Made by a program: the position numbers and the translations under genes
Shown here: positions 3,110 through 15,512 of the stretch, in pieces
Numbering within the stretch: the first letter of the stretch is position 1
Layout: each line of letters starts with the position of its first letter
The notes under the pieces: generated by a model
Databases searched by the model: none
The model's input: only the letters and a program-made list of their open reading frames with translations
Told to the model about the DNA's origin: nothing
Source: Fibrobacter sp. UWB2
GTDB taxonomy: Bacteria; Fibrobacterota; Fibrobacteria; Fibrobacterales; Fibrobacteraceae
DNA length: 64,000 nucleotides
Direction of reading: 5' to 3'
Assembly: GCF_002210425.1 (NCBI RefSeq)
Contig: NZ_MWQK01000005.1
Coordinates: forward strand, 186,001-250,000

Positions 3110-4042
3110 TCAATTATTTGATGCCTTTTCCTGCATCGCCTTTGCTTCCTGAATTTTTTCTTCAGGAACCCCAAGCTTGCGCATAACATCCAAGGCATTG
3201 TCGAAACCCTTTTCGAGACCTTCTTCAAGACCTTTTTTCATGCCATCTTCCCGACCGGCTTTTTCAGCGGCACGGCGGGCATCCCCGGCGCTTACAAAGC
3301 CCATCCTCTGTCCGATACTTTTCCATGCCATCTGAAGTTTCTCCACGGTACTTTCGTCAATATACTCTCCTAAATATAGTATGATTTTTTCAACAAGGGT
3401 AGCCTGCTCAGCGCTAGGCATTTTACGAAGAATAGTTTCGACATTCGGGATAGCCGACTTAAAGCCTTCAGGACTGAAAGCGTATTTCATCGCCATTACC
3501 CCGACAGCCGCCGCAGGGGAATCAGATTCAACACAGGCAATATCATCAGCTGCAGCAAGGTTCACAAGCACGCACTCAAAAGGAAGCTCATTCCCCTGGA
3601 ATTTAGCACGAGCTTTTTTGCGAAATTCAGCCAAAGGATCCCATCCGGTAGGACCGTTATAAATGATAATCGCCTTCGTCGGAATCCAGCTGAACACTTC
3701 GTCTTCGTGATCCAAGATGACTCGAAGAGCGTAACGCCCAACCTGATTAAGCACGCTCTTCTCCTGTTTGGACTTATGTTCCAAAAGAATGCCGACATTG
3801 ATTTCGCCGCCTCCCGAAAGATGCGCCTTGAACGCAATGTCCGCCTCGCCGCGTTCGCCAACTTCGCTGTAGGTGTCCGGCAGACGCACAAGCGTATCCA
3901 AGTTTACACCTGCAAGAATCCTATCAAGATCGCTATTGTTTTTACTGCAGATGTTCAACAGCGCCTTGGCATTCTTGGGAACGCTATACACATAGCGGAA
4001 GAATCCGTCGTGGTCACGCGACCGAGTTTTTTCTTGACTCAT
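3110..4042 (-). CDS. Rpn family recombination-promoting nuclease / YhgA-like PD-(D/E)XK protein
   Basis: 310 residues. The N-terminal two thirds match the Rpn (PDDEXK_2, YhgA-like) family: an FFRYVYS start region, GEADIAF with the catalytic aspartate, and VGILLEHKS supplying the E-x-K pair. Rpn proteins are DNA endonucleases that raise RecA-independent recombination and behave like mobile or defence genes. The C terminus holds an Arg/Glu/Lys helix with repeating KKGLEEGLEKG, typical of the family. AGGAGG precedes the ATG. An intrinsic terminator lies just upstream (4061-4093), so its transcript may begin before that hairpin. Confidence 0.85.
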   Translation of the reverse strand: MSQEKTRSRDHDGFFRYVYSVPKNAKALLNICSKNNSDLDRILAGVNLDTLVRLPDTYSEVGERGEADIAFKAHLSGGGEINVGILLEHKSKQEKSVLNQVGRYALRVILDHEDEVFSWIPTKAIIIYNGPTGWDPLAEFRKKARAKFQGNELPFECVLVNLAAADDIACVESDSPAAAVGVMAMKYAFSPEGFKSAIPNVETILRKMPSAEQATLVEKIILYLGEYIDESTVEKLQMAWKSIGQRMGFVSAGDARRAAEKAGREDGMKKGLEEGLEKGFDNALDVMRKLGVPEEKIQEAKAMQEKASNN

Positions 4043-4180: not shown

Positions 4181-6484
4181 TTACAGCCCCAGTCTGCGTC
4201 CTTGATGGTCATCTTTATTGGCAATTTCTTCGAGCATGTTCTGCATAATCAGTTCTCGCGTGCGCAAGTCGGCGGGAACGTAGGCAAGTTTACGGCGAAC
4301 ATTCTGAAAATCGCTAATGGACACATTATCGCAAGCAAGAACTTCTCTTGGGCATTTATCCCCAAAGAACGATGTCCATGTTTTCGAAACCTGCTTAGAG
4401 TCCATATAGTCAAACGCCAGCTTCAGCTGAAAACGCCGACGGATTGCCCAATCCAAAACGTTCTCGTAATTCGTCGCTGCGATAAGCATTCCGTTGAACG
4501 CATCCATTTGACAAATAAACTCATTTACCAAAGTTACTTCCCAGTGATTTTTTGCATTGCCACGATTTTCAAAGAAGCTATCAGCCTCATCAATGAAGAG
4601 AATAGCATCGCTCTGTTCAGCTTCTCTGAACATTTCACGAATGTTGCGTTCCGTATCGCCCACAATTCCGCCAAGGATATCGCTTGCACGCTTCACAAGC
4701 AAATCTCGACCAAGAATATCATGAGCAATATGCTTTGCATAAGCCGACTTCCCCGTTCCCGGAGGACCGTACAAAAAGATGTTCAAGTTTTCTCTGCGTC
4801 CATTCAATTTTGAAGCACGCCATTGCGCATCGAAATTTTTGAGCATCGGAACGACATAATCAATATTCTTTATATCCCCGCTAGAAATGCGGACACATTC
4901 CATATTATACTCGTTTCCTTTAGCCTCTTGCGAACCCATCGATATGCCCAAAAGTTTGGCATGAGACGTCGCAATTTCACGAACCACATTCAACGGGGAA
5001 AAATCCGCCGCTTGCATCAGCTGTGCTTGACGAACCGCCAACGTAATGCTCCCCGCCATCACGGGAATTTCCTTGGCAATATTCTCTATTTCGTCATTAC
5101 ACAAAATCGATTCCGCCTGTTGCGCTTTAAGAACAGACTGCCAAATCGCAACGCGTTCCTTATTACTGAACGTGAAAAATTCCAGCGAATAATCAAACCG
5201 GCGACGAGTACTATTTTCAATACACGCAATATTATTCGTAATCCAAATAACAGGTGTTTTCAGATTCTCAAAAATGATATTCAGCAAACCTTTCTCCGCC
5301 TGATTCAAAACCAAATCAGCCTCGTCCATCAAGATTACGCCACCACTCCGCTCACATTCCCAATCAGCAAGCAACATAGAACGCAAACGAGTCTGCAAAA
5401 GGGATTCCTTATCCATAGATTCGTCACCCAAGCCCACAGCAAGCAATGGGACATTCAACTCCTGAGCAAGCGCTTTCGCAAGTTCCGTTTTTCCAGTTCC
5501 TTCACGACCGTAAAAAAGGATATTGAGTGGCGAGCCCTTCTGATGTGTCTTCAGCATCTGCAAAACAAAAAGTGCCTGCGGATTCGTCTTGGCAATTTGA
5601 GCATATTCAACACAAGGCTTTGGCGCAGTCTTTAAATCCATAATCCTCGACATATCCGAAAAGCCATACAGAAAATCGCTCACCTCGCTCGCCAAATACA
5701 GTTCACGCCGCTTGATTTTCAAGTCTGCATTTCGATTCGTCTCCTCCATACGCACCAGCTGAAACTTGATAAGCGCACTCTCCTTTGAACAGAGTTCATG
5801 CAATGTCGCCGGCTCTAGCCCCGCAATCAAAGAAATTCGCCTAAACGATCCCCGTTCGGACGGATCAAAGTAATCAAACATCTTCGAGATCTTTTCAACC
5901 TTAAAAAACATGTTATGATGATCGCGAAGCCACAAGTACAGCACAAGATCCAAAGCTTCATCCGAAAGATGGAAAAGGCGCTTCAATTCAAAAGCCCTCT
6001 GCATCGACACATCGCTTTCATCGCATCCGCCAGCAAGCCAGTTTGCGGAACACTCTTGAATTGACCGAGAAAGCAACAGGCGTGTATAAACATCACCATC
6101 GCCCCAATGAGCAACAAAGCTCAGGAAATGCTTTGCAAAAATGATTCTTCGGCTTTTATGGAATTCTTCAAGAAGATCCTTCGCCTTGTACCACTTATTC
6201 TCAATCTCCGTCGTAATTCCAGTAGGAAGTTCAATGCATTCACGGGATTCATACACTCTATCCAAAAAAGTCGCAACGCATTCATCCGTCATATACTTGT
6301 CGCAAAAGACTCTGCAATCCCCATCTGGATAATGCCGCATAAAGCGGCTCCAAAATTCCATAATTTTCAAGTCTATAAAAGTCGGCTGACCGCTCAGAGA
6401 CTTTTCAGAGACACCCTCTTTACCAAGCATTTCGCGCTTATTTTTAAAGTAATTTTCAATTGTATTTTCATAATGTAACTGCAT
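4181..6484 (-). CDS. Tandem AAA+ ATPase
   Basis: 767 residues with an uncharacterised helical N-terminal 300 residues and two AAA+ modules. Module 1 has Walker A GREGTGKT (326-333) and Walker B VILMDEAD (383-390). Module 2 has GPPGTGKS (573-580), ILFIDEAD (628-635) and an arginine-rich IRRRF after the sensor segment, similar to the classical FtsH/CDC48-like clade. Upstream in-frame codons to 6529 lie inside the promoter; the ATG at 6484 follows TTGAGG and a leader of about 20 nt, so it is the likely start. Probably a remodelling ATPase of an accessory, possibly defence, function; no partner is identified. Confidence 0.75.
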   Translation of the reverse strand: MQLHYENTIENYFKNKREMLGKEGVSEKSLSGQPTFIDLKIMEFWSRFMRHYPDGDCRVFCDKYMTDECVATFLDRVYESRECIELPTGITTEIENKWYKAKDLLEEFHKSRRIIFAKHFLSFVAHWGDGDVYTRLLLSRSIQECSANWLAGGCDESDVSMQRAFELKRLFHLSDEALDLVLYLWLRDHHNMFFKVEKISKMFDYFDPSERGSFRRISLIAGLEPATLHELCSKESALIKFQLVRMEETNRNADLKIKRRELYLASEVSDFLYGFSDMSRIMDLKTAPKPCVEYAQIAKTNPQALFVLQMLKTHQKGSPLNILFYGREGTGKTELAKALAQELNVPLLAVGLGDESMDKESLLQTRLRSMLLADWECERSGGVILMDEADLVLNQAEKGLLNIIFENLKTPVIWITNNIACIENSTRRRFDYSLEFFTFSNKERVAIWQSVLKAQQAESILCNDEIENIAKEIPVMAGSITLAVRQAQLMQAADFSPLNVVREIATSHAKLLGISMGSQEAKGNEYNMECVRISSGDIKNIDYVVPMLKNFDAQWRASKLNGRRENLNIFLYGPPGTGKSAYAKHIAHDILGRDLLVKRASDILGGIVGDTERNIREMFREAEQSDAILFIDEADSFFENRGNAKNHWEVTLVNEFICQMDAFNGMLIAATNYENVLDWAIRRRFQLKLAFDYMDSKQVSKTWTSFFGDKCPREVLACDNVSISDFQNVRRKLAYVPADLRTRELIMQNMLEEIANKDDHQGRRLGL

Positions 6485-6510
6485 GGTTTTAACCTCAATT
6501 TTGCACCATA

Positions 6511-6547
6511 CAATATAAAAGAAACGCACGACAATTGATGTCGTGCG
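6511..6547 (-). promoter_or_regulatory. Shared dyad promoter, copy 2
   Basis: A perfect inverted repeat, CGCACGACA/TGTCGTGCG with a 5-nt centre (6525-6547), is followed on the minus strand by TATATT (6512-6517) at the same 11-nt offset from TTGTCG as in the other four copies. It would drive the tandem AAA+ gene. Confidence 0.65.
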
Positions 6548-6574: not shown

Positions 6575-7288
6575 TTATTTCACATTTAGCCAATTTTTTC
6601 TTAGAGATTCAACAAAAAATTGCCTACTAGTCAAGCCATGAAAATAATCATCAGAGCTTCCTGTTTTTACTTTCGCCACCCTATTCCACCAAGAACAAGA
6701 TGGGTGTTCAGTAAAAACATAGTTCATATGATGTTTTTCAGCATAAACCCACAAGCCACAATTAAAGTTTTTGGGAAAATCAATCCACTCCGCATGATTA
6801 AAAGCAAAGCGACTCGTAAAAACAATAACATCAGGCTTCAAAATTTCAAGAATAGCGTAAAAAACGCGAACAGCTTCATCACAATCTCGGTCCGTGCAAA
6901 TATGTTTAAATGATCGTCGGTAATCAGCAGGCCGCAGAAAATAGTTGCAACTAGCCATTTCTACAAATGCATTTTCACCCACAACTGGAAAAACTTCACG
7001 AATAGCCCTGTCTATATTCTTTCCAAATCGGCCACTTTTATAATCGCGAGCTCCACGCGTATTACAATATCTTACTTCATCATCCGAAAGATTTAGACTT
7101 CCATCATACCATAAATTATCATTATGATGAACAACCGCCCCCTTAGGCATATAATGACTTTCACCAACCAACAATAACTTCTTATGTTCAGGAGATTCAT
7201 AATTATCTCCAACAAACGGAAGCATATACCAATGAGATTGATAAAACGGGATTGATAATAATTGAGAATCATACATAGAATTTGACAT
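6575..7288 (-). CDS. UDG-superfamily-like protein, paralogue A
   Basis: 237 residues, about half identical to the gene at 7450-8154. Conserved blocks are LLLVGESHYMP (about 38-48), a CNTRG...SGRFGK stretch, NYFLRPAD, ILKPDVIVFTS and TEHPSC. A glycine-acid-aromatic first motif, a central N-aromatic block and a late HPS motif recall the uracil-DNA glycosylase fold (GExPG/GQDPYH and HPSP), so a UDG-like fold is proposed; catalysis is not shown. GTGAGG precedes the ATG. A terminator at 7421-7446 separates it from its paralogue, so it probably has its own promoter in 7290-7420. Confidence 0.6.
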   Translation of the reverse strand: MSNSMYDSQLLSIPFYQSHWYMLPFVGDNYESPEHKKLLLVGESHYMPKGAVVHHNDNLWYDGSLNLSDDEVRYCNTRGARDYKSGRFGKNIDRAIREVFPVVGENAFVEMASCNYFLRPADYRRSFKHICTDRDCDEAVRVFYAILEILKPDVIVFTSRFAFNHAEWIDFPKNFNCGLWVYAEKHHMNYVFTEHPSCSWWNRVAKVKTGSSDDYFHGLTSRQFFVESLRKNWLNVK

Positions 7289-7420
7289 CAGTGAACCTCA
7301 CATTTTTCAAATCTACCGTCCATAGGGAGTTCTCTATAAACCTTTGAAATAATCTACTCTAAAACAATTCACGCTGTACAAGTTTGACATTGAAAAATAT
7401 ATTCAAGACTAGATCAAGCA

Positions 7421-7446
7421 AAAAGGTAGTCGAAAGACTACCTTTT
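7421..7446 (-). terminator. Intrinsic terminator after the dynamin operon
   Basis: AAAAGGTAGTC-GAAA-GACTACCTTTT: an 11-bp stem closed by a GAAA tetraloop, with T runs on both strands. On the minus strand it falls 4 nt after the stop at 7450 and ends the operon that starts near 12849. Confidence 0.85.
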
Positions 7447-7449
7447 CAT

Positions 7450-8154
7450 CTATCTAAGCCATTTTTCCTTAAGCCATGCACAGAAAAATTCCCGCGAGGT
7501 CATGCCACGAGCTTTATCATATTTTGACATGGTCTGGTTCCAATGAGCGCTAGACGGATGATTCGTATAGATATAATCCTCAATTCCGTGAGATTTAGTC
7601 CAATCCCAAAGATTTCCTCCGAAACACTTCGGATAATCAAAACCTTCCGCCTGTTTGCAGACCGTAGAGCTCAGGAACACAAACAAATCCGGTTTCAGTA
7701 TATCAAGTACCTTGATAAAATTACGAATCGCCTGTTCGCAGTCAACATCCTTACCACCATAGGAATTCCACAAATCGCTAATACTTTGACGATCATCAGC
7801 CGGGCGCAAGAAATAATTGAGGAACGCCACCTGATGCCAACCATTGTCACCGTTCGGCAACACCAAATTCAAGCAACGATCAATTTCTTTCCCGAAACGT
7901 CCACTTTTACCTTCACGAGTTCCGCGTGTATTACACCAATCCTGTTCGTCACTCGTTAGCATAGAACCCCCATACCACGTATTGACGCCATGATGAACAG
8001 TAGAGCCATCAGGCATATAATGACTTTCACCAATCAATAAAAGCTTTTTATGTTTCGAAGATTCGTAATCATCTCCCACAAACGGCATCATGTAAGAATG
8101 CGTTTTGTAGAACGGGATGGATTGGAATTGAGAATCATAAGATGTATTGGACAT
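7450..8154 (-). CDS. UDG-superfamily-like protein, paralogue B (last gene of dynamin operon)
   Basis: 234 residues, the tandem paralogue of 6575-7288. It shares LLLIGESHYMP, DWCNTRGTREGKSGRFGK, NYFLRPADD, ILKPDLFVF and TNHPSSAHWN, the same order of blocks that suggests a UDG-like fold. It starts 15 nt after the LeoA-like GTPase gene, so it is cotranscribed with the dynamin genes and ends at the terminator 7421-7446. Function is unknown; nucleic-acid processing as part of a defence operon is inference. Confidence 0.6.
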   Translation of the reverse strand: MSNTSYDSQFQSIPFYKTHSYMMPFVGDDYESSKHKKLLLIGESHYMPDGSTVHHGVNTWYGGSMLTSDEQDWCNTRGTREGKSGRFGKEIDRCLNLVLPNGDNGWHQVAFLNYFLRPADDRQSISDLWNSYGGKDVDCEQAIRNFIKVLDILKPDLFVFLSSTVCKQAEGFDYPKCFGGNLWDWTKSHGIEDYIYTNHPSSAHWNQTMSKYDKARGMTSREFFCAWLKEKWLR

Positions 8155-8169
8155 ATTTTCTCCTAAAAA

Positions 8170-9882
8170 TTATTCATCAGCATTTTTCAATTTTTCTATT
8201 TGAGAAATGGTTTCCTCTAAATTCATTTTTTTCTTTTCTATTTCACAGGCAATTTGTTTAATCTGTCCGCACTTTTCTTTTAATCCATCTTTGTAAGACT
8301 CTATTTCTATTGTACTAGGCTTAAAATCATCAAATAATTTTACAACATCTCTTTTCAGCTCATTTTTTTGTTTCTTTAATTCGTATTGAGCGTATATTCT
8401 TTGTCCTAAACTAGCAATGGTGTTTACAACTTTTTCAATATGCTCTTTATTTTTACAGGTAAAATCTGCTACCCTTGAAACACCTTCTAAAGTATGGCCA
8501 ACCTGGTTAATTTTATTAGCCACTTTTTTAGCTCCATGAGGTTTAAATTTATGGTTTACTCCTGTATAATTTCGAATTTCATTTCTTGCCGCAAGTACTT
8601 TTTTATTATCAATTTTCTCTTCTTCTATCAATGAGGCTCCTTTTTGTGCAAGGCCTCCGACAACCTTTATTCCATCAAATATAGAGATGCTTTGTGATTC
8701 AGCAACATCGTGTTTTTCAAGAATAAGTTGAGGTAGATAGAACGCTTCGATACTATAGATATCACCAAATAAGTTGTTCCAGCTTTCTTTCCAAGAATCC
8801 CCCAATTTTAAGAAAAAATTCTTGTCAAACTGAGAAATTGATTCACTATCAGCACTTTCTATTAAGGCGAGAACATCATTCATTCTCTTATTCGTCATAT
8901 TTTCAAAATTAGTTTGCTTATTCACAAAGAGTTGCAATTCTCGTTCTATGTCGTTCTTTTCTTTTTTATAACATTGAAGGTTATTATTAGTTTCTTGTAA
9001 AGATGAATTTATTTCATTTTGAATTTGGCAACAAATATCACTTACAACTGATTCAATCGTTTCTCCCATAAGATCTTTACATTCATTAACTTCCAAAATT
9101 TCGATTAATTTTTTTCGTAAATTTTGAATTCTAGATTTGCCTAAGTAAAGCGTTTTTCGCTCATCATTGGCAAACCACTTTTTTAAGGATTTTTTTCCTG
9201 GATCAAGGGATACACATACAACATTAACTTTTTTAGCTTCTTCTTCTTCAAGATTTATAAATAATTTCAACTTATTTATTAAATTCTCTGTTTTTATGAG
9301 GCATTGCTCTTTAAAATCATCTTCTTCAGACAAATCAGCAACCGAATCCATTTTGTTGATAACAAAAATCGTGTTGGGCAACTTATTTAACGTCCGCAAC
9401 ACATAATTCAAAGAATCCCTATGGCTTTCTTTTAAAGGATTTTCAGCTTCAACGACATATACTATTACATTCGCTTCGGATATGTATCGTAATGTCATAT
9501 CCTCATAGCGGATTTTCTCATCACCATTATCACTTTCTTTATTTCCAAACAAACCCGGAGTGTCAATGAACACACACCGGTCCTCAAGACCACGGACACA
9601 ATAGGATTTTATAGTGTTAGACGATTCATCCGTATTTATCTGCATATCATCTTTTTCTTCTTCAAGCAGGCCCGCAATAGCAGTAGTTTTCCCTGCAGAA
9701 AAGCTTCCTAGAAACACAATCTTTATTGGACCGTTAATTGAATTTACAAAACGATCAATCTTGTTTATATAGTTTTTTGAATTTTGAATAATTTCCGATT
9801 TATTTTCTATAATTTCTCTTAGCTTTATCAATTTCGTCTTCATAAATTCTTTCTTTTCAAGAACAGATTTAAGCTCTTTCAT
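8170..9882 (-). CDS. Dynamin-like GTPase, LeoA-type
   Basis: 570 residues. G1 GSFSAGKTT is at 59-67, G3 DTPG at 107-110 and G4 NKMD at 176-179, followed by long coiled-coil helices and a FKPHGAKKVANK stretch resembling the C-terminal region of LeoA proteins. Bacterial dynamin-like proteins remodel membranes; LeoA/LeoBC pairs are known as the Eleos antiphage system. The start at 9882 has GGGAG upstream and overlaps the preceding GTPase gene by 14 nt, indicating translational coupling. Confidence 0.75.
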   Translation of the reverse strand: MKELKSVLEKKEFMKTKLIKLREIIENKSEIIQNSKNYINKIDRFVNSINGPIKIVFLGSFSAGKTTAIAGLLEEEKDDMQINTDESSNTIKSYCVRGLEDRCVFIDTPGLFGNKESDNGDEKIRYEDMTLRYISEANVIVYVVEAENPLKESHRDSLNYVLRTLNKLPNTIFVINKMDSVADLSEEDDFKEQCLIKTENLINKLKLFINLEEEEAKKVNVVCVSLDPGKKSLKKWFANDERKTLYLGKSRIQNLRKKLIEILEVNECKDLMGETIESVVSDICCQIQNEINSSLQETNNNLQCYKKEKNDIERELQLFVNKQTNFENMTNKRMNDVLALIESADSESISQFDKNFFLKLGDSWKESWNNLFGDIYSIEAFYLPQLILEKHDVAESQSISIFDGIKVVGGLAQKGASLIEEEKIDNKKVLAARNEIRNYTGVNHKFKPHGAKKVANKINQVGHTLEGVSRVADFTCKNKEHIEKVVNTIASLGQRIYAQYELKKQKNELKRDVVKLFDDFKPSTIEIESYKDGLKEKCGQIKQIACEIEKKKMNLEETISQIEKLKNADE

Positions 9883-11512
9883 AAGTCATCTCCCTGATAT
9901 TATTATATGTACATTTTAACGATTCTAACTGATCTGCAAATATTTTTTTCAAATAGTTTGTTGATTTTTTATCCTCATCCAACAGTGACAAAAATCTTTC
10001 TTCAATCATTTCTTTTGCTTCGTCAATTTGTTTATCAACTTCACTAACAAATACATTTTTTTGTTGTAGCAGTTGATTCCTTATCTGGTTTTTTATTTGA
10101 TTTATTTTTGATTTTCTCTGATAAAAATTTAAAGCTTTGCCCACAATACTTTCAAGAATATTAAAAGCAGCATCCGCAACATTCAACGCATCTTCATATG
10201 ATATTTTTTTTAAATCAAATCTCATTTTACCATTTACCACATTCAACACTCCGGAATTTTTCTTTCCTAAATCATAAAGTTTACTTCCACTCTCTATAAC
10301 AGATTTTGAAAAAAATTCTACATCTACTGGTAAAGACATATCAGAGATATTCTTTATGTAAATTTTTCGTATTTTCATTGAACCAGAATCTGCAAAATCA
10401 GCTTTTGACATAGACTTTCTTAAATAGTTTGTTTCCTGATTTAATGAAGTATTTAACGATTCTACCATTTTTTTTATAATACCGTTTATTTCTCCATTCG
10501 TATTCTGTTGTAAATCATCAACGCATCTCATCAACTCTTTATTTATTTTTTTTGACGAATAAGACCCAATATAGATATCAATAATATGACACATTTCATT
10601 TTCACATTTCACAAATTTTTTTTCAATTATACTTTCTACATTATTTTTCGTTTCTGTAATCTCATGACTAAAATAATTCCTCATTTTCCTAATCGATTCA
10701 TCTATTAGCTTATTATTACCATCAATATTTTTTTCAACGTCATCAAAAACCGCCTGCAACTCTGTTATACGAGTCTGCATATATTTTTCTGCTCGAATTT
10801 TGTTGCTTTCCCAAATATCTTTCTCATAAGATTCAATTTTCGTCTCTATCAATTTTTGCAAAAACGCTATTTGACTAAATTTTAGCATTTCCTGATATGA
10901 AAAATATTTTTTAAAGTTTTCTTGAACTTTTCTTAAATTTTTTCCTTTTCTGGGTCCACAAATAGAAGTTTCCCCGTTTGCGTCAACAGCGGCTCCACAA
11001 AAAGCAAGAAGCCCCTGAATTGAATTAATTCCTAAAAACGTTTCATTTCCAAAAGCACATTTCAATATTTCTGAAGTCTGCTCTTTTACTTCAATACCTT
11101 TTTCATTCTCTAGATTTTCCCGATCCTCTTCAAATTCATATGCATCAGCTTTTCCTCGTATATTGCACAAGGCATACACTTTTGACGTGTATTTTAAATA
11201 TTGCTTAATCTTATTTACCGTTGCTGGTTCCGGTTTCTTTTCTGAACTACTTACAAAAAGAACTAAATGAGCTTTTTTCAAAGCTCGATCAATCAGTGAT
11301 TTGTATTTTTCTTCGTCCCCTTCAATTCCAGGAACATCTATAAGAATAAAATTTTTTCCATTACAACTTAAATGATATTCTGCATTATCCTTAGTATAAT
11401 CAGCCTGCCCGGTTCCAATAATCCGTCCATCGATTTTACCATCATCTAGAAGGAGGCTCACTAAATTTCGCCTTTCAGTCAACTCACTAATCAAAGAATC
11501 TTTAAAATTCAT
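9869..11512 (-). CDS. Dynamin-like GTPase half carrying G2-G4 (LeoB-like)
   Basis: 547 residues. The frame begins after where a P-loop should be. It has a candidate G2 threonine in ADYTKDN (residue 40), G3 DVPG at 59-62 and a G4-like CNIRGKAD at 116-123, then about 400 residues of helical, coiled-coil stalk. The missing P-loop is in the preceding gene, which overlaps by ATGA. Together the two make one complete GTPase, as in separate LeoC/LeoB versus fused LeoBC. Native split and frameshift are both possible. Confidence 0.7.
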   Translation of the reverse strand: MNFKDSLISELTERRNLVSLLLDDGKIDGRIIGTGQADYTKDNAEYHLSCNGKNFILIDVPGIEGDEEKYKSLIDRALKKAHLVLFVSSSEKKPEPATVNKIKQYLKYTSKVYALCNIRGKADAYEFEEDRENLENEKGIEVKEQTSEILKCAFGNETFLGINSIQGLLAFCGAAVDANGETSICGPRKGKNLRKVQENFKKYFSYQEMLKFSQIAFLQKLIETKIESYEKDIWESNKIRAEKYMQTRITELQAVFDDVEKNIDGNNKLIDESIRKMRNYFSHEITETKNNVESIIEKKFVKCENEMCHIIDIYIGSYSSKKINKELMRCVDDLQQNTNGEINGIIKKMVESLNTSLNQETNYLRKSMSKADFADSGSMKIRKIYIKNISDMSLPVDVEFFSKSVIESGSKLYDLGKKNSGVLNVVNGKMRFDLKKISYEDALNVADAAFNILESIVGKALNFYQRKSKINQIKNQIRNQLLQQKNVFVSEVDKQIDEAKEMIEERFLSLLDEDKKSTNYLKKIFADQLESLKCTYNNIREMTYERA

Positions 11513-12024
11513 ATAACAACACCAATAAAAAATGAAACCATCATATATACTATAAAAGCTACAATATATGGAACTTTACTTTTCTGCAATGATTTTATAG
11601 ATTTTTTTATAGATTCAATTTCTGCATAAACATCATTTACATCTTTTTCTGATGCAATTTTCAAACGATTTATCGCCGCATCATATTTATCTAGTAAGTC
11701 GATTTTTTCTTTTTGATCCAATTTAAGTAATTCTTCTCTCGATGGATCATTAAAGAGTATTCGCAAAGATTCTATAATAGTACTTTTTCCAGCATTTGTC
11801 TCCCCAAAAAAAGCAATTGCAAATTCATTCCACTCTGAATTTTGTTTTAAATCTTGCAATTCTTCGTCAAATTTTTTTTGTAAAATACCCAATTTATCTT
11901 GCGTGTTTTGAATAGTTGACGAAACCTTTGTACCAGAAGACGGTAATTTATTCAATTCATTTATCGCCTCGTGAAGGTTGTTGGAGATTTCCTCATAAAA
12001 ATTTTGAATATTACTACCTATCAT
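11509..12024 (-). CDS. Dynamin-like GTPase half carrying the P-loop and a membrane anchor (LeoC-like)
   Basis: 171 residues. A helical N terminus leads to G1 GETNAGKST (74-82), then a coiled coil and one hydrophobic segment at 151-171 that runs to the very end. There is no DxPG in this frame; it is in the next gene. The stop TGA and the next ATG overlap (ATGA). In fused homologues the coiled coil and membrane segment would form an insertion between G1 and G2. A run of six T on the coding strand just before the junction is a possible slip site. Confidence 0.65.
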   Translation of the reverse strand: MIGSNIQNFYEEISNNLHEAINELNKLPSSGTKVSSTIQNTQDKLGILQKKFDEELQDLKQNSEWNEFAIAFFGETNAGKSTIIESLRILFNDPSREELLKLDQKEKIDLLDKYDAAINRLKIASEKDVNDVYAEIESIKKSIKSLQKSKVPYIVAFIVYMMVSFFIGVVI

Positions 12025-12069
12025 TATAGTCCTTTTTGCTCATAGCCCCTTTGGGGGATACTTATAAAA

Positions 12070-12384
12070 TTACAATCCAAGTTTTTCTATAATCTGATTA
12101 GCATCAAATTCATTCGTTTGTTTAAAGTTTGTCTTTGATACCATTTTTTTGATATACTCAATTTCATAATCATTCCTATATAATTCAATGGCTTCAACAG
12201 TACTTCCTTTAGTTCGGCATGCACATATTATAACATTGCACATCCCTTGAACAAAATCCTGAAGACTTTTTGGCAGTCGATATCCGGGATCACCTTGCGT
12301 TTCTATTCCTATTTTCATTCCATTCAAATTGCCAAATACACATTTTTCATCTTTGTCATCCTTTTCGCAAGAAACATATGACAC
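12070..12384 (-). CDS. Hypothetical protein, 5' end probably frameshifted (intact frame would begin at 12442)
   Basis: 104 residues from a GTG start, of unrecognised family: the core KIGIETQGDPGYRL...VIICACRTKG looks like an alpha/beta nucleotide- or substrate-binding fold. The GTG at 12384 has no good ribosome site. A strong AAGGAGG lies ahead of an ATG at 12440-12442, but that frame stops after three codons; removing one base from the A4 run (T4 on plus, 12436-12439) would join it in frame with this gene and add about 19 residues (MKSETLRIVIQKLKEKY...). It lies inside the dynamin operon, 13 nt from the zinc-ribbon gene once extended. Confidence 0.55.
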   Translation of the reverse strand: MSYVSCEKDDKDEKCVFGNLNGMKIGIETQGDPGYRLPKSLQDFVQGMCNVIICACRTKGSTVEAIELYRNDYEIEYIKKMVSKTNFKQTNEFDANQIIEKLGL

Positions 12385-12455
12385 AGAAGAATATTTTTCT
12401 TTTAACTTTTGAATGACGATTCTTAAAGTTTCAGATTTTCATTTCATCCTCCTTA

Positions 12456-12662
12456 TTACATCACCTCATGTTTTCCACCACGGCTACAATTGCCGTTGGC
12501 GATAGTCCAAAAGTCATATGAAAAGCCACATTTGGCACACACGTATTTTGGTCCTTGTTGCATTCCGCGATAAGGATCGTGTTTTCCGCCTCTGCTGCAG
12601 CCACCATTTGCAATAGTCCAGGCGTCATAGGACTGCCCGCATTTTTTACAATAAAAATTCAT
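12456..12662 (-). CDS. Small double zinc-ribbon protein, first gene of the dynamin operon
   Basis: 68 residues made of two near-identical units, each CxxCGxSYDxWTIANG followed by CSRGGKH. Each unit supplies CxxC plus a later Cys and His, a plausible zinc site, so the protein is an internal duplication. It is the first gene after promoter 12856-12887 and starts after AAGGGGAC. Its role in the operon is unknown; zinc ribbons of this size often mediate protein or nucleic-acid contacts. Confidence 0.7.
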   Translation of the reverse strand: MNFYCKKCGQSYDAWTIANGGCSRGGKHDPYRGMQQGPKYVCAKCGFSYDFWTIANGNCSRGGKHEVM

Positions 12663-12887: not shown

Positions 12888-13183
12888 TCGGCCCTTGGCT
12901 TGCATTTTTTCCCACAAAAAAAGCGTGGAGTTTATGCAATTTACTCAATCGCGGTTCGGCAAAACCTATACGGAATAAACACAAAAACCCACGCCACGAG
13001 GCGCGAGTCAGTGCGCTCAGTCTTCCGTATATTCAAAATTTTGCCGATTTCGATTGAAAGCCAAGAGCAGAGCTCAAACTTATGTCAAAAACTTGATTAC
13101 CTTATGAAAACCTCTTTTTTCAGTAATATAATCAAATTTTCACAAGGCATGCACGCAAAAGCGCGTTTTCTACACTTTTTCAA
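12888..13183. other. About 300 bp without a convincing gene
   Basis: No frame with a ribosome site or family resemblance was found on either strand. GCGTGG (12927 region) and CCACGC (12991 region) could pair across about 60 nt, so a small structured RNA cannot be excluded. Confidence 0.4.
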
Positions 13184-13714
13184 TCACAGAATCAAGTTTA
13201 CGACGAGCTTGACCATGGTTTCGCGCTCTTCGGGCTTGCTTTCGGCGATGAGTAGCGTGAGGGCGACGAGAGCGCCGTCACTCAAAATTTTGGAGCCATC
13301 CACGCGGTAGAGGATTTCGTTGCGAGACATGTACCACAAGAAAATGAATGCGGCGATGCGCTTGTTGCCATCGATAAAGGAATGGTTCTTGACGAGTAGA
13401 TAGAGGAGCGTTGCGGCTTTTAGCTGTACGGTCGGATAAAGGTCCTTGCCGTCGAAGGTCTGGTAAATTTGTCCGAGAGAACTTTTGAAAGAGGCATCTT
13501 TTTCAACGCCGAAGATGCCGCTGTCGCGGAACTTTTCCTTGAGCACAGCGATAGCGTCCATGGCGAGTTCGTATGTTATGGCACCTTTCGTTTCAGCATA
13601 GTCGCCCGCCTTGGGGATTTCAAGTTGTTGATGGTCGTACCGGTCCAACGTTTCGAGGGCCGTTCTAAAATCGCTGATGACGTTTGCAATTTCAAGTTTT
13701 TCGTTTTTATCCAT
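13184..13714 (-). CDS. Fic/DOC family protein (C-terminal RhuM-like form)
   Basis: 176 residues. The Fic core motif HSFIDGNKRIAAF lies at about 112-124, the death-on-curing form of HxFxDGNxRxxR. The region EKDASFKSSLGQIYQTFDG before it matches the end of RhuM-type virulence proteins, which are normally twice as long, so this is either a stand-alone Fic domain or a truncated RhuM. Fic proteins transfer AMP or phosphate to target proteins; Doc inactivates EF-Tu. AAGGAG precedes the ATG. No antitoxin Phd-like gene is adjacent. Confidence 0.8.
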   Translation of the reverse strand: MDKNEKLEIANVISDFRTALETLDRYDHQQLEIPKAGDYAETKGAITYELAMDAIAVLKEKFRDSGIFGVEKDASFKSSLGQIYQTFDGKDLYPTVQLKAATLLYLLVKNHSFIDGNKRIAAFIFLWYMSRNEILYRVDGSKILSDGALVALTLLIAESKPEERETMVKLVVNLIL

Positions 13715-13782: not shown

Positions 13783-14304
13783 CTACTTGATTCTATCGCT
13801 GCAGAATTCCTGGCGGCCGCATTTTTCGCAATGAGCGCCCATCCAAAGCGTGTCGAATTGTTCTATAGCGGGTTCGACGATGTGCGGGTCATTCGTGAGG
13901 ATTCCCGCTTCGAAGTTGCGACGGAGCGAGCTTTTCATGCCGATGCCGGCTCCAGTCAAGTTTGCAGAGCCGATGTAAGCGGTTTCAAGGTCGAATATCA
14001 TCATCTTGAAATGCACTCGCGGACACATGACGCGTTCGAGGTCGGTCGCAAGAATCTTATAGCGGTCGAAATCTTCGCGGAAGTTCGGGCCGGGTTCTTT
14101 TGCATGAATGAGCCGCACGCCTACGCCGCGCTTGAGCAGTCCTGCGAGTTGTCCGAGCAACGGGATTGATTCGCCGTTCTGTTTCACATAAACATCCTTG
14201 ATGTCGGCGGTGCCGATCCAGAGCGTTTTGCGAACTGTCGCGATACGAGAAATTACTTCGGAATAGTGTTCTTCGTTTTGGATGTACTTGGTAAAGGTCG
14301 GCAT
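13783..14304 (-). CDS. Phospholipase D-like nuclease with single HKD motif
   Basis: 173 residues. One HKD motif is clear: VHFKMMIFD followed by AYIGSANLTGAG, as in Nuc/BfiI-type PLD nucleases that act as dimers. The C terminus carries EKCGRQEFC, possibly metal-binding. An in-frame ATG at 14334 lies inside the promoter dyad. The ATG at 14304 has no Shine-Dalgarno and falls almost on the predicted transcription start, suggesting a leaderless mRNA. A nuclease role in defence or DNA repair is inference. Confidence 0.75.
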   Translation of the reverse strand: MPTFTKYIQNEEHYSEVISRIATVRKTLWIGTADIKDVYVKQNGESIPLLGQLAGLLKRGVGVRLIHAKEPGPNFREDFDRYKILATDLERVMCPRVHFKMMIFDLETAYIGSANLTGAGIGMKSSLRRNFEAGILTNDPHIVEPAIEQFDTLWMGAHCEKCGRQEFCSDRIK

Positions 14305-14311
14305 AGAAAGA

Positions 14312-14343
14312 AATATAGTATTGTCGCACGACAATAAATGTCG
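14312..14343 (-). promoter_or_regulatory. Shared dyad promoter, copy 5
   Basis: Minus strand: CGACATTTATTGTCG (14329-14343), 11 nt, TATATT (14312-14317). The -10 is only about 7 nt from the ATG of the PLD gene. Confidence 0.65.
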
Positions 14344-14495: not shown

Positions 14496-15512
14496 ATGGA
14501 AAATCCGGGTCGCGGCGAACGCATGGTGCGAATTTTTGTGTACCTGATGGCACACTATAACAATCGTTATAGCGTTACGGACATCATGCAGCATTTGGAC
14601 ATTCCCGCAAGTGAATTGCGAAGCGTGCAGCGCGATATGCAGGCATTGACAAATCTCGAAAGCCATTACATCCAACGCATTACCGACAGCGGCAAGACTT
14701 ATTACCAGGCGGCGCTCGAACGTGCGAACAAGCTCGTATTCCCTGAGTTTGGCGACATGGTTTTGCATTTCGTCTTTTTACAGCGCATCGCGAACTTGTA
14801 CCCGGCAACAGCTAGCCTTATCGATGACCTCACCAGAAGAATTACGCAGGATTTGCCTGCGAAGCAGCAAGACATTCTGAAGAGCTATTCAAAAGAATTA
14901 AGCGGCCGCATTCTCTTCATGGGGACTCCGCCCAATTACGACGAAGACGTGAGCAAGCACCTGCCGACTATCCTTAATGCGATTCGCAAGAAGCAGAAGG
15001 TACAAATAACATATACAGACAATTGGGGAACGGTATCCACTCAACCTCGCATTCCGTTAATGGTCGCGATAAGTCATGGAGACATTTATATCGGTTGCGT
15101 TTCGCAGCACCACCCCGACAAAACTTACGCGTTAAAATTGCAACGCATCGAGTCGGTAAAATTGCTGAAGGAAACTTTTGAAGAAGACCCGAAGGTGGTC
15201 GAATCACTGCGCAAGCGCATCCGCACGGGATCTTTGCTTTTAGGCGACCAGAACCCGCAAGAAGAAAAGGTCGTCATTTACTTCCCGAAATACGCCAAGA
15301 ACTTTTTGAAGGAACGTCCGTACCACCGCTCCATGAAAATGGAAGACGCGCCAGGCGACGAGATCCGCGTAACGATGAAGGTCGAGGTGAACGAGCTGCT
15401 CAAGCAGTGGATTATGTATTATGGGAACATCGCGACGGTCCAACAGCCGAAAAAGTTGAGGCAGATGATACTGGAAACAGCTAAATCCATCGTAAATAAG
15501 TACGAAAAGTAA
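14496..15512 (+). CDS. WYL-domain transcriptional regulator
   Basis: 338 residues. An N-terminal winged helix (about 8-65, with an ELRSVQRDMQAL recognition region as in DeoR/WYL proteins) precedes a WYL domain (about 165-240) and a C-terminal extension domain. WYL proteins bind ligands, often nucleic acids, and many repress defence operons (BrxR, CapW). GAGGT precedes the ATG by 6 nt. Lying at the edge of a region with five identical dyad promoters, it is a candidate regulator of them; this is inference. Confidence 0.8.
   Translation: MENPGRGERMVRIFVYLMAHYNNRYSVTDIMQHLDIPASELRSVQRDMQALTNLESHYIQRITDSGKTYYQAALERANKLVFPEFGDMVLHFVFLQRIANLYPATASLIDDLTRRITQDLPAKQQDILKSYSKELSGRILFMGTPPNYDEDVSKHLPTILNAIRKKQKVQITYTDNWGTVSTQPRIPLMVAISHGDIYIGCVSQHHPDKTYALKLQRIESVKLLKETFEEDPKVVESLRKRIRTGSLLLGDQNPQEEKVVIYFPKYAKNFLKERPYHRSMKMEDAPGDEIRVTMKVEVNELLKQWIMYYGNIATVQQPKKLRQMILETAKSIVNKYEK

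Follow-up and report, generated by a model that had tools for sequence, protein, structure and literature searches.

The minus-strand operon at positions 7450–12662 of the analysed DNA (the window, a 64,000-nucleotide stretch from Fibrobacter sp. UWB2) is probably an Eleos core plugged into a Fibrobacter defence hotspot with constant ends, in which a leader RNA and a zinc-ribbon gene stand in front of the core and a UDG-like gene and a terminator behind it. Six genes had been proposed here by an earlier, sequence-only reading, and six minus-strand reading frames were found in the order and positions claimed, namely zinc ribbon, IGIE, LeoC, LeoB, LeoA and UDG-like (Table 1).

Table 1. Coordinates of the operon, its leader RNA and terminator, and the flanking genes in the window.
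Feature	Position	Strand	Basis or remark
Rpn-type putative nuclease/transposase, hotspot edge	3110-4042	-	Pfam Transposase_31, 8e-11
Double AAA+ protein, IetA-like C-terminal half, downstream flank	4181-6529	-	Profile matches
Second UDG-like paralogue	6575-7288	-	54% identical to the 7450-8154 protein; beside AAA+ gene
Intrinsic terminator of operon	7419-7448	-	Hairpin -22.5 kcal/mol, z = -5.0, 3' of UDG-like gene
UDG-like protein, 234 aa	7450-8154	-	Family alignments A1, A5; indirect PF03167 link
LeoA dynamin-like GTPase (GSFSAGKTT, DTPG, NKMD)	8170-9882	-	PADLOC 8e-167
LeoB, second half of split dynamin (DVPG motif, stalk)	9869-11512	-	PADLOC 1.2e-147
LeoC, P-loop half (GETNAGKST) of split dynamin, C-terminal hydrophobic helix	11509-12024	-	PADLOC 8.2e-48
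IGIE remnant of small P-loop NTPase gene	12070-12438	-	Walker A lost; internal GTG ORF 12070-12384
Double zinc-ribbon protein, 68 aa	12456-12662	-	Two C-x2-C...C...H repeats
Structured leader RNA (P1, P2, P3, CCACGC, U-run)	12913-13036	-	Covariance model match, 123 bits
Fic-family gene, upstream flank of cargo	13184-13714	-	PADLOC PDC-S23
PLD-like gene	13783-14334		Name assigned by eye
WYL-like gene	14496-15512		Name assigned by eye

The assignment of the three GTPase genes to Eleos was right. Direct evidence of family membership came from PADLOC matches to LeoC, LeoB and LeoA, from the score of LeoA against the NCBIfam LeoA/HP0731 model NF041922 (348.9 bits, cut-off 325) and from a Pfam dynamin-like helical domain (DLP_helical) in LeoA. 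LeoC and LeoB lie adjacent to LeoA in the same orientation, the arrangement that Eleos membership requires. The translations contain complete Eleos GTPase motifs across LeoC plus LeoB and in LeoA, although LeoB has an atypical G4 motif. In the LeoABC system of ETEC, one dynamin is split into LeoC, with the P-loop and a hydrophobic helix, and LeoB, and the genes surrounding leoCBA are not conserved according to the authors (PMC4159319). The window resembles this form in its LeoC-LeoB-LeoA order, its split dynamin and the C-terminal hydrophobic helix of LeoC, and differs from it in the zinc-ribbon gene in front, the UDG-like gene behind and the leader RNA. Owing to the profile matches and the ETEC-like split, the core is, judged by sequence, the already known Eleos form with split LeoC/LeoB; the accessory arrangement around it is new.

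A role in vesicle release or secretion, with defence secondary, was first proposed for ETEC LeoABC, and deletion of leoA, leoB or leoAB in ETEC H10407 roughly halves vesicle markers (PMC4159319). Such a role is barely credible for the window genes, however, as PADLOC lists LeoA/B/C as defence proteins and the site also holds Fic (PDC-S23), an IetA-like AAA+ gene, DUF262 pairs and other defence-type cargo.

The operon closes with a strong hairpin after the UDG-like gene, as the claim of one terminator had it, and this terminator separates the Leo operon from the second UDG-like paralogue. The paralogue and the neighbouring AAA+ gene may form a separate two-gene system. The accompanying claim of one promoter gained no support: sigma-70-like sites (23) were no more frequent than in shuffled sequence (mean 24.0). 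The upstream region contains the structured leader RNA, which ends in a terminator-like U-run.

The second gene, previously described as an unknown IGIETQGDPG protein, proved to be decayed, with both its Walker A motif and its start lost. Six relatives, taken from four other genomes of the phylum, one Paludibacteraceae genome and locus L102, are small P-loop NTPases of 131–158 aa, and an N-terminal G-x4-GK[ST] Walker A motif is present in 6/6. Its loss in the window can be read directly from the DNA: the ribosome-binding site runs into ATG AAA TGA, the first codon of the open frame is the K of GK[ST] (GKS) and a 104-aa ORF is obtained only from an internal GTG. The remaining family pattern is kept, including 'GIETQGDPG' and 'IICACRTKGST'. 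The simplest reading would be that a passenger gene has lost a small N-terminal segment. A programmed frameshift or an unusual start was considered and rejected; neither can restore the Walker A residues, for which no codons are left in the DNA separating the ribosome-binding site from the open frame. No Leo genes were seen beside IGIE relatives in the five neighbourhoods viewed. The sixth relative (L102:11574-11993, minus strand), intact and distant, directly adjoins a different type of zinc/UDG-like operon on the opposite strand.

The call of a double zinc ribbon was borne out by the two repeats of the 68-aa protein. In its family alignment (A2) the cysteines are invariant or nearly so, and relatives occur in 21/151 genomes. 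Relatives of the UDG-like protein were found in 20/151 related genomes, and in their alignment (A1) G-E-S-x-Y, N and H-P-S are invariant and look similar to UDG motifs. The protein itself matched no UDG family in Pfam, NCBIfam or PADLOC at E ≤ 1. Its relatives match PF03167 weakly (2.5e-4 to 0.016, below the cut-off of that family), and profile comparison ties the UDG-like family set to the PF03167-matching relatives (88%, E = 2.9e-6). A PDB sequence search with A1 gave a single chance match (E = 0.63), and an AlphaFold model built from the two window paralogues was poor (pLDDT 43.8) and was discarded. Membership of the UDG superfamily is likely on this sequence evidence; the earlier label holds for the motifs, while the assignment is remote and lacks a direct family match. 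No relatives were confirmed in viral contigs, and plasmids yielded one distant Pseudomonas copy with no Leo neighbours. Brig1, a lone UDG-superfamily enzyme, confers defence through excision of modified phage bases (PMC11078745). The window protein is likened to it at the level of the superfamily, as a probable UDG-superfamily protein in a defence setting; unlike Brig1, it is encoded in company with zinc and membrane-core genes. Several distinct UDG-like subfamilies were also observed in operons with zinc-ribbon genes and coiled-coil or membrane proteins (L052, L094, L099, L103, L107 and L108).

LeoB was found in 5/151 related genomes and, in a scan of the phylum, in 6/168. The zinc and UDG-like accessories adjoin Leo in three of the six phylum systems: the window, G070 (zinc stub-LeoC-LeoB-LeoA-zinc finger-UDG-like) and G165, which belongs to another genus (JukA-like-LeoBC-LeoA-zinc finger-UDG-like). 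This repeated pairing was observed directly. Among these three systems LeoA is 30–35% and LeoCB 29–31% identical, against 72–78% for the UDG-like proteins. Such discordance indicates that different Leo lineages joined nearly the same UDG-like gene separately, and the Leo and UDG-like sequences clearly have separate histories. The other three systems (G046, G002 and G068) have no such adjacent accessories, and their LeoA proteins are 57–62% identical to that of G070. Dynamin_N genes are rare, with only three matches in this genome, two of which are LeoA and LeoB of the window, so repeated dynamin-accessory adjacency is unexpected by chance. The adjacency counts carry no p-value, since the loci are related, many of them at one shared site, and are not independent. 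In G002, a very distant UDG-like gene lies 1.7 kb from leoA on the other strand.

These counts bear on the view of the sequence-only reading that all six products cooperate in a dedicated, extended Eleos machine. Compact gene order on one strand and one strong terminator are consistent with it. Nevertheless, we regard it as highly unlikely: IGIE retains neither its start nor its Walker A motif, accessories are missing from half of the Leo systems in the phylum, and they have a history separate from Leo. The expected co-occurrence with Leo elsewhere was found for the zinc and UDG-like genes, in G070 and G165, and not for IGIE. What remains of the extended system is the adjacency in 3/6 systems; it is absent from the other three, and other cores share the accessories.

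Such sharing was seen with several core types. Zinc/UDG-like accessories accompany three consecutive dynamins (L038, L040 and L045), septin-like/DUF697 GTPases (L039 and L043), EcsC/PDC-S29 proteins (L041 and L042) and JukA (L099). Within the genus, operons of the JukA, EcsC (PDC-S29) and triple-dynamin types share the accessories of the window operon and differ from it in having unrelated core proteins. Zinc genes lacking a UDG-like gene were found beside EcsC (L095, L098 and L106), beside dynamins (G088, locus L097, and a Calditerrivibrio plasmid) and beside DUF262 pairs (Chryseobacterium and Hymenobacter plasmids). UDG-like genes also stand alone or without a zinc partner (L044 and L046–L049). 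We conclude that the zinc and UDG-like genes are real accessories, common to several unrelated defence cores and not specific to Leo. Outside the phylum, plasmid zinc genes lie beside triple dynamins or DUF262 pairs in L110 (NC_014749.1), L111 (NZ_CP033935.1) and L112 (NZ_CP095048.1). In L111 and L064, zinc/DUF262 genes lie ~8 kb from a LeoBC-LeoA pair on the same strand.

DNA comparison of the locus directly revealed conserved flanks around variable cargo. The AAA+ and Rpn side is mostly 88–94% identical to G076, G018, G050 and G052 where present; on the other side, the PLD-like and WYL-like genes are 77–93% identical in the same four genomes. In many genomes the Fic gene adjoins the cargo. 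A truncated zinc-gene stub precedes LeoC in L034 and the dynamins in L038, resembling a scar left when cargo was swapped. This is a swap-prone defence site with Fic (PDC-S23), an IetA-like AAA+ gene and variable defence-type cargo. Relatives of the Rpn-type gene occur in several related loci, and the AAA+ gene and UDG-like paralogue were also found as a pair in L047.

Such a site could itself create the association. The zinc and UDG-like genes would then mark the boundary as residents, or form a Brig1-like defence of their own, with no working link to the Leo core in either case, and recombination in the conserved flanks would swap cargo and merely juxtapose genes. The conserved flanks and variable cargo fit this account, as do stand-alone UDG-like genes (L044 and L046–L048) and the Leo systems without accessories (G046, G002 and G068). 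It is a possible alternative, less probable than a core with true accessories, as the association is also seen at other positions (near pilus genes in G165; in G036 and G068) and in another genus, and the partners are mostly membrane/GTPase-type cores. Since the association recurs at other sites, the shared site alone is insufficient to explain it.

The favoured reading, an Eleos core between the constant ends of the hotspot, includes a mechanism. LeoC and LeoB would form one split, membrane-anchored dynamin and LeoA a second. On infection, LeoC/LeoB and LeoA would pair via their GTPase domains at the membrane, and the paired dynamins would reshape or disrupt that membrane and thereby lower phage release or cell survival. 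This GTP-driven membrane action in infection is suggested by known Leo and DynA biology (PMC4159319, PMC8844932). DynA of Bacillus subtilis, a bacterial dynamin that delays phage lysis, likewise acts at the membrane during infection (PMC8844932); unlike the window system, it is a single housekeeping-type, two-headed dynamin with no accessory genes. The IGIE gene would contribute little or nothing.

The zinc/UDG-like pair may recognise nucleic acid. It could sense phage DNA and trigger whichever membrane core is present, or, like Brig1, it could be a glycosylase that attacks modified phage bases on its own. The data describe a shared accessory pair with exchanged cores; any cooperation of the pair with the core is hypothetical. 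To our knowledge, no trigger has been established for Eleos as an anti-phage dynamin system. In the window, Eleos is linked to a pair that may recognise nucleic acid and that turns up again with several unrelated cores of the membrane-acting type; if the pair were a shared sensor, it could explain triggering of Eleos, JukA-type, EcsC-type and multi-dynamin systems.

The DNA between the Fic and zinc genes has relatives in 29/151 genomes; most of the copies examined lie directly in front of a gene and point the same way. It contains a leader RNA with a core of ~125 nt. Across 41 distinct copies, in an alignment fitted to the model, 92.6% of pair cells were standard, two-sided changes occurred at 9/9 pairs of P1, and the covariation score reached 0.488, compared with 0.192 for shuffles and no more than 0.127 for slid controls. 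A separate test of P1 on ungapped sequences agreed (134 matched positions; permuted mean 58, maximum 101). The covariance model found 127 copies in 24/25 same-genus genomes and none in 16 others. Copies often stand ahead of defence operons: the genes 3' of them include type I, III and IIG restriction-modification genes, the GTPase and EcsC operons described earlier and a PDC-S48 relative; copies also precede lipoprotein or secreted protein genes. When the window and six more loci carrying copies were compared with Rfam 15, no family matched the element at E ≤ 1. Reading this conserved DNA as an integron-like cassette end was considered and dropped, given the co-oriented leader position and the RNA covariation.

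A near-invariant GGCGTGGG in the leader can pair with either an upstream CTCACGCC or a downstream [CT]CCACGC before the U-run. This alternative pairing suggests an attenuator, which would set expression through transcription attenuation; the alternation is predicted from complementarity, as those pairs hardly vary. Absent from Rfam, the leader RNA is a candidate for regulating defence operons, those for restriction-modification among them, and may be more novel than the accessory arrangement. A bolder extension, which we hold to be rather unlikely, is a modular chassis with a constant leader RNA and zinc/UDG-like module and an exchanged membrane core (Leo dynamins, triple dynamins, septin-like GTPases, EcsC or JukA), where the pair would be a phage-DNA sensor licensing the core and the leader an infection-responsive, genus-wide attenuator. 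At two leader-RNA loci, L136:1886-1932 (plus strand) and L140:175-225 (minus strand), the Rfam DUF3800-XI RNA was detected above its gathering score.
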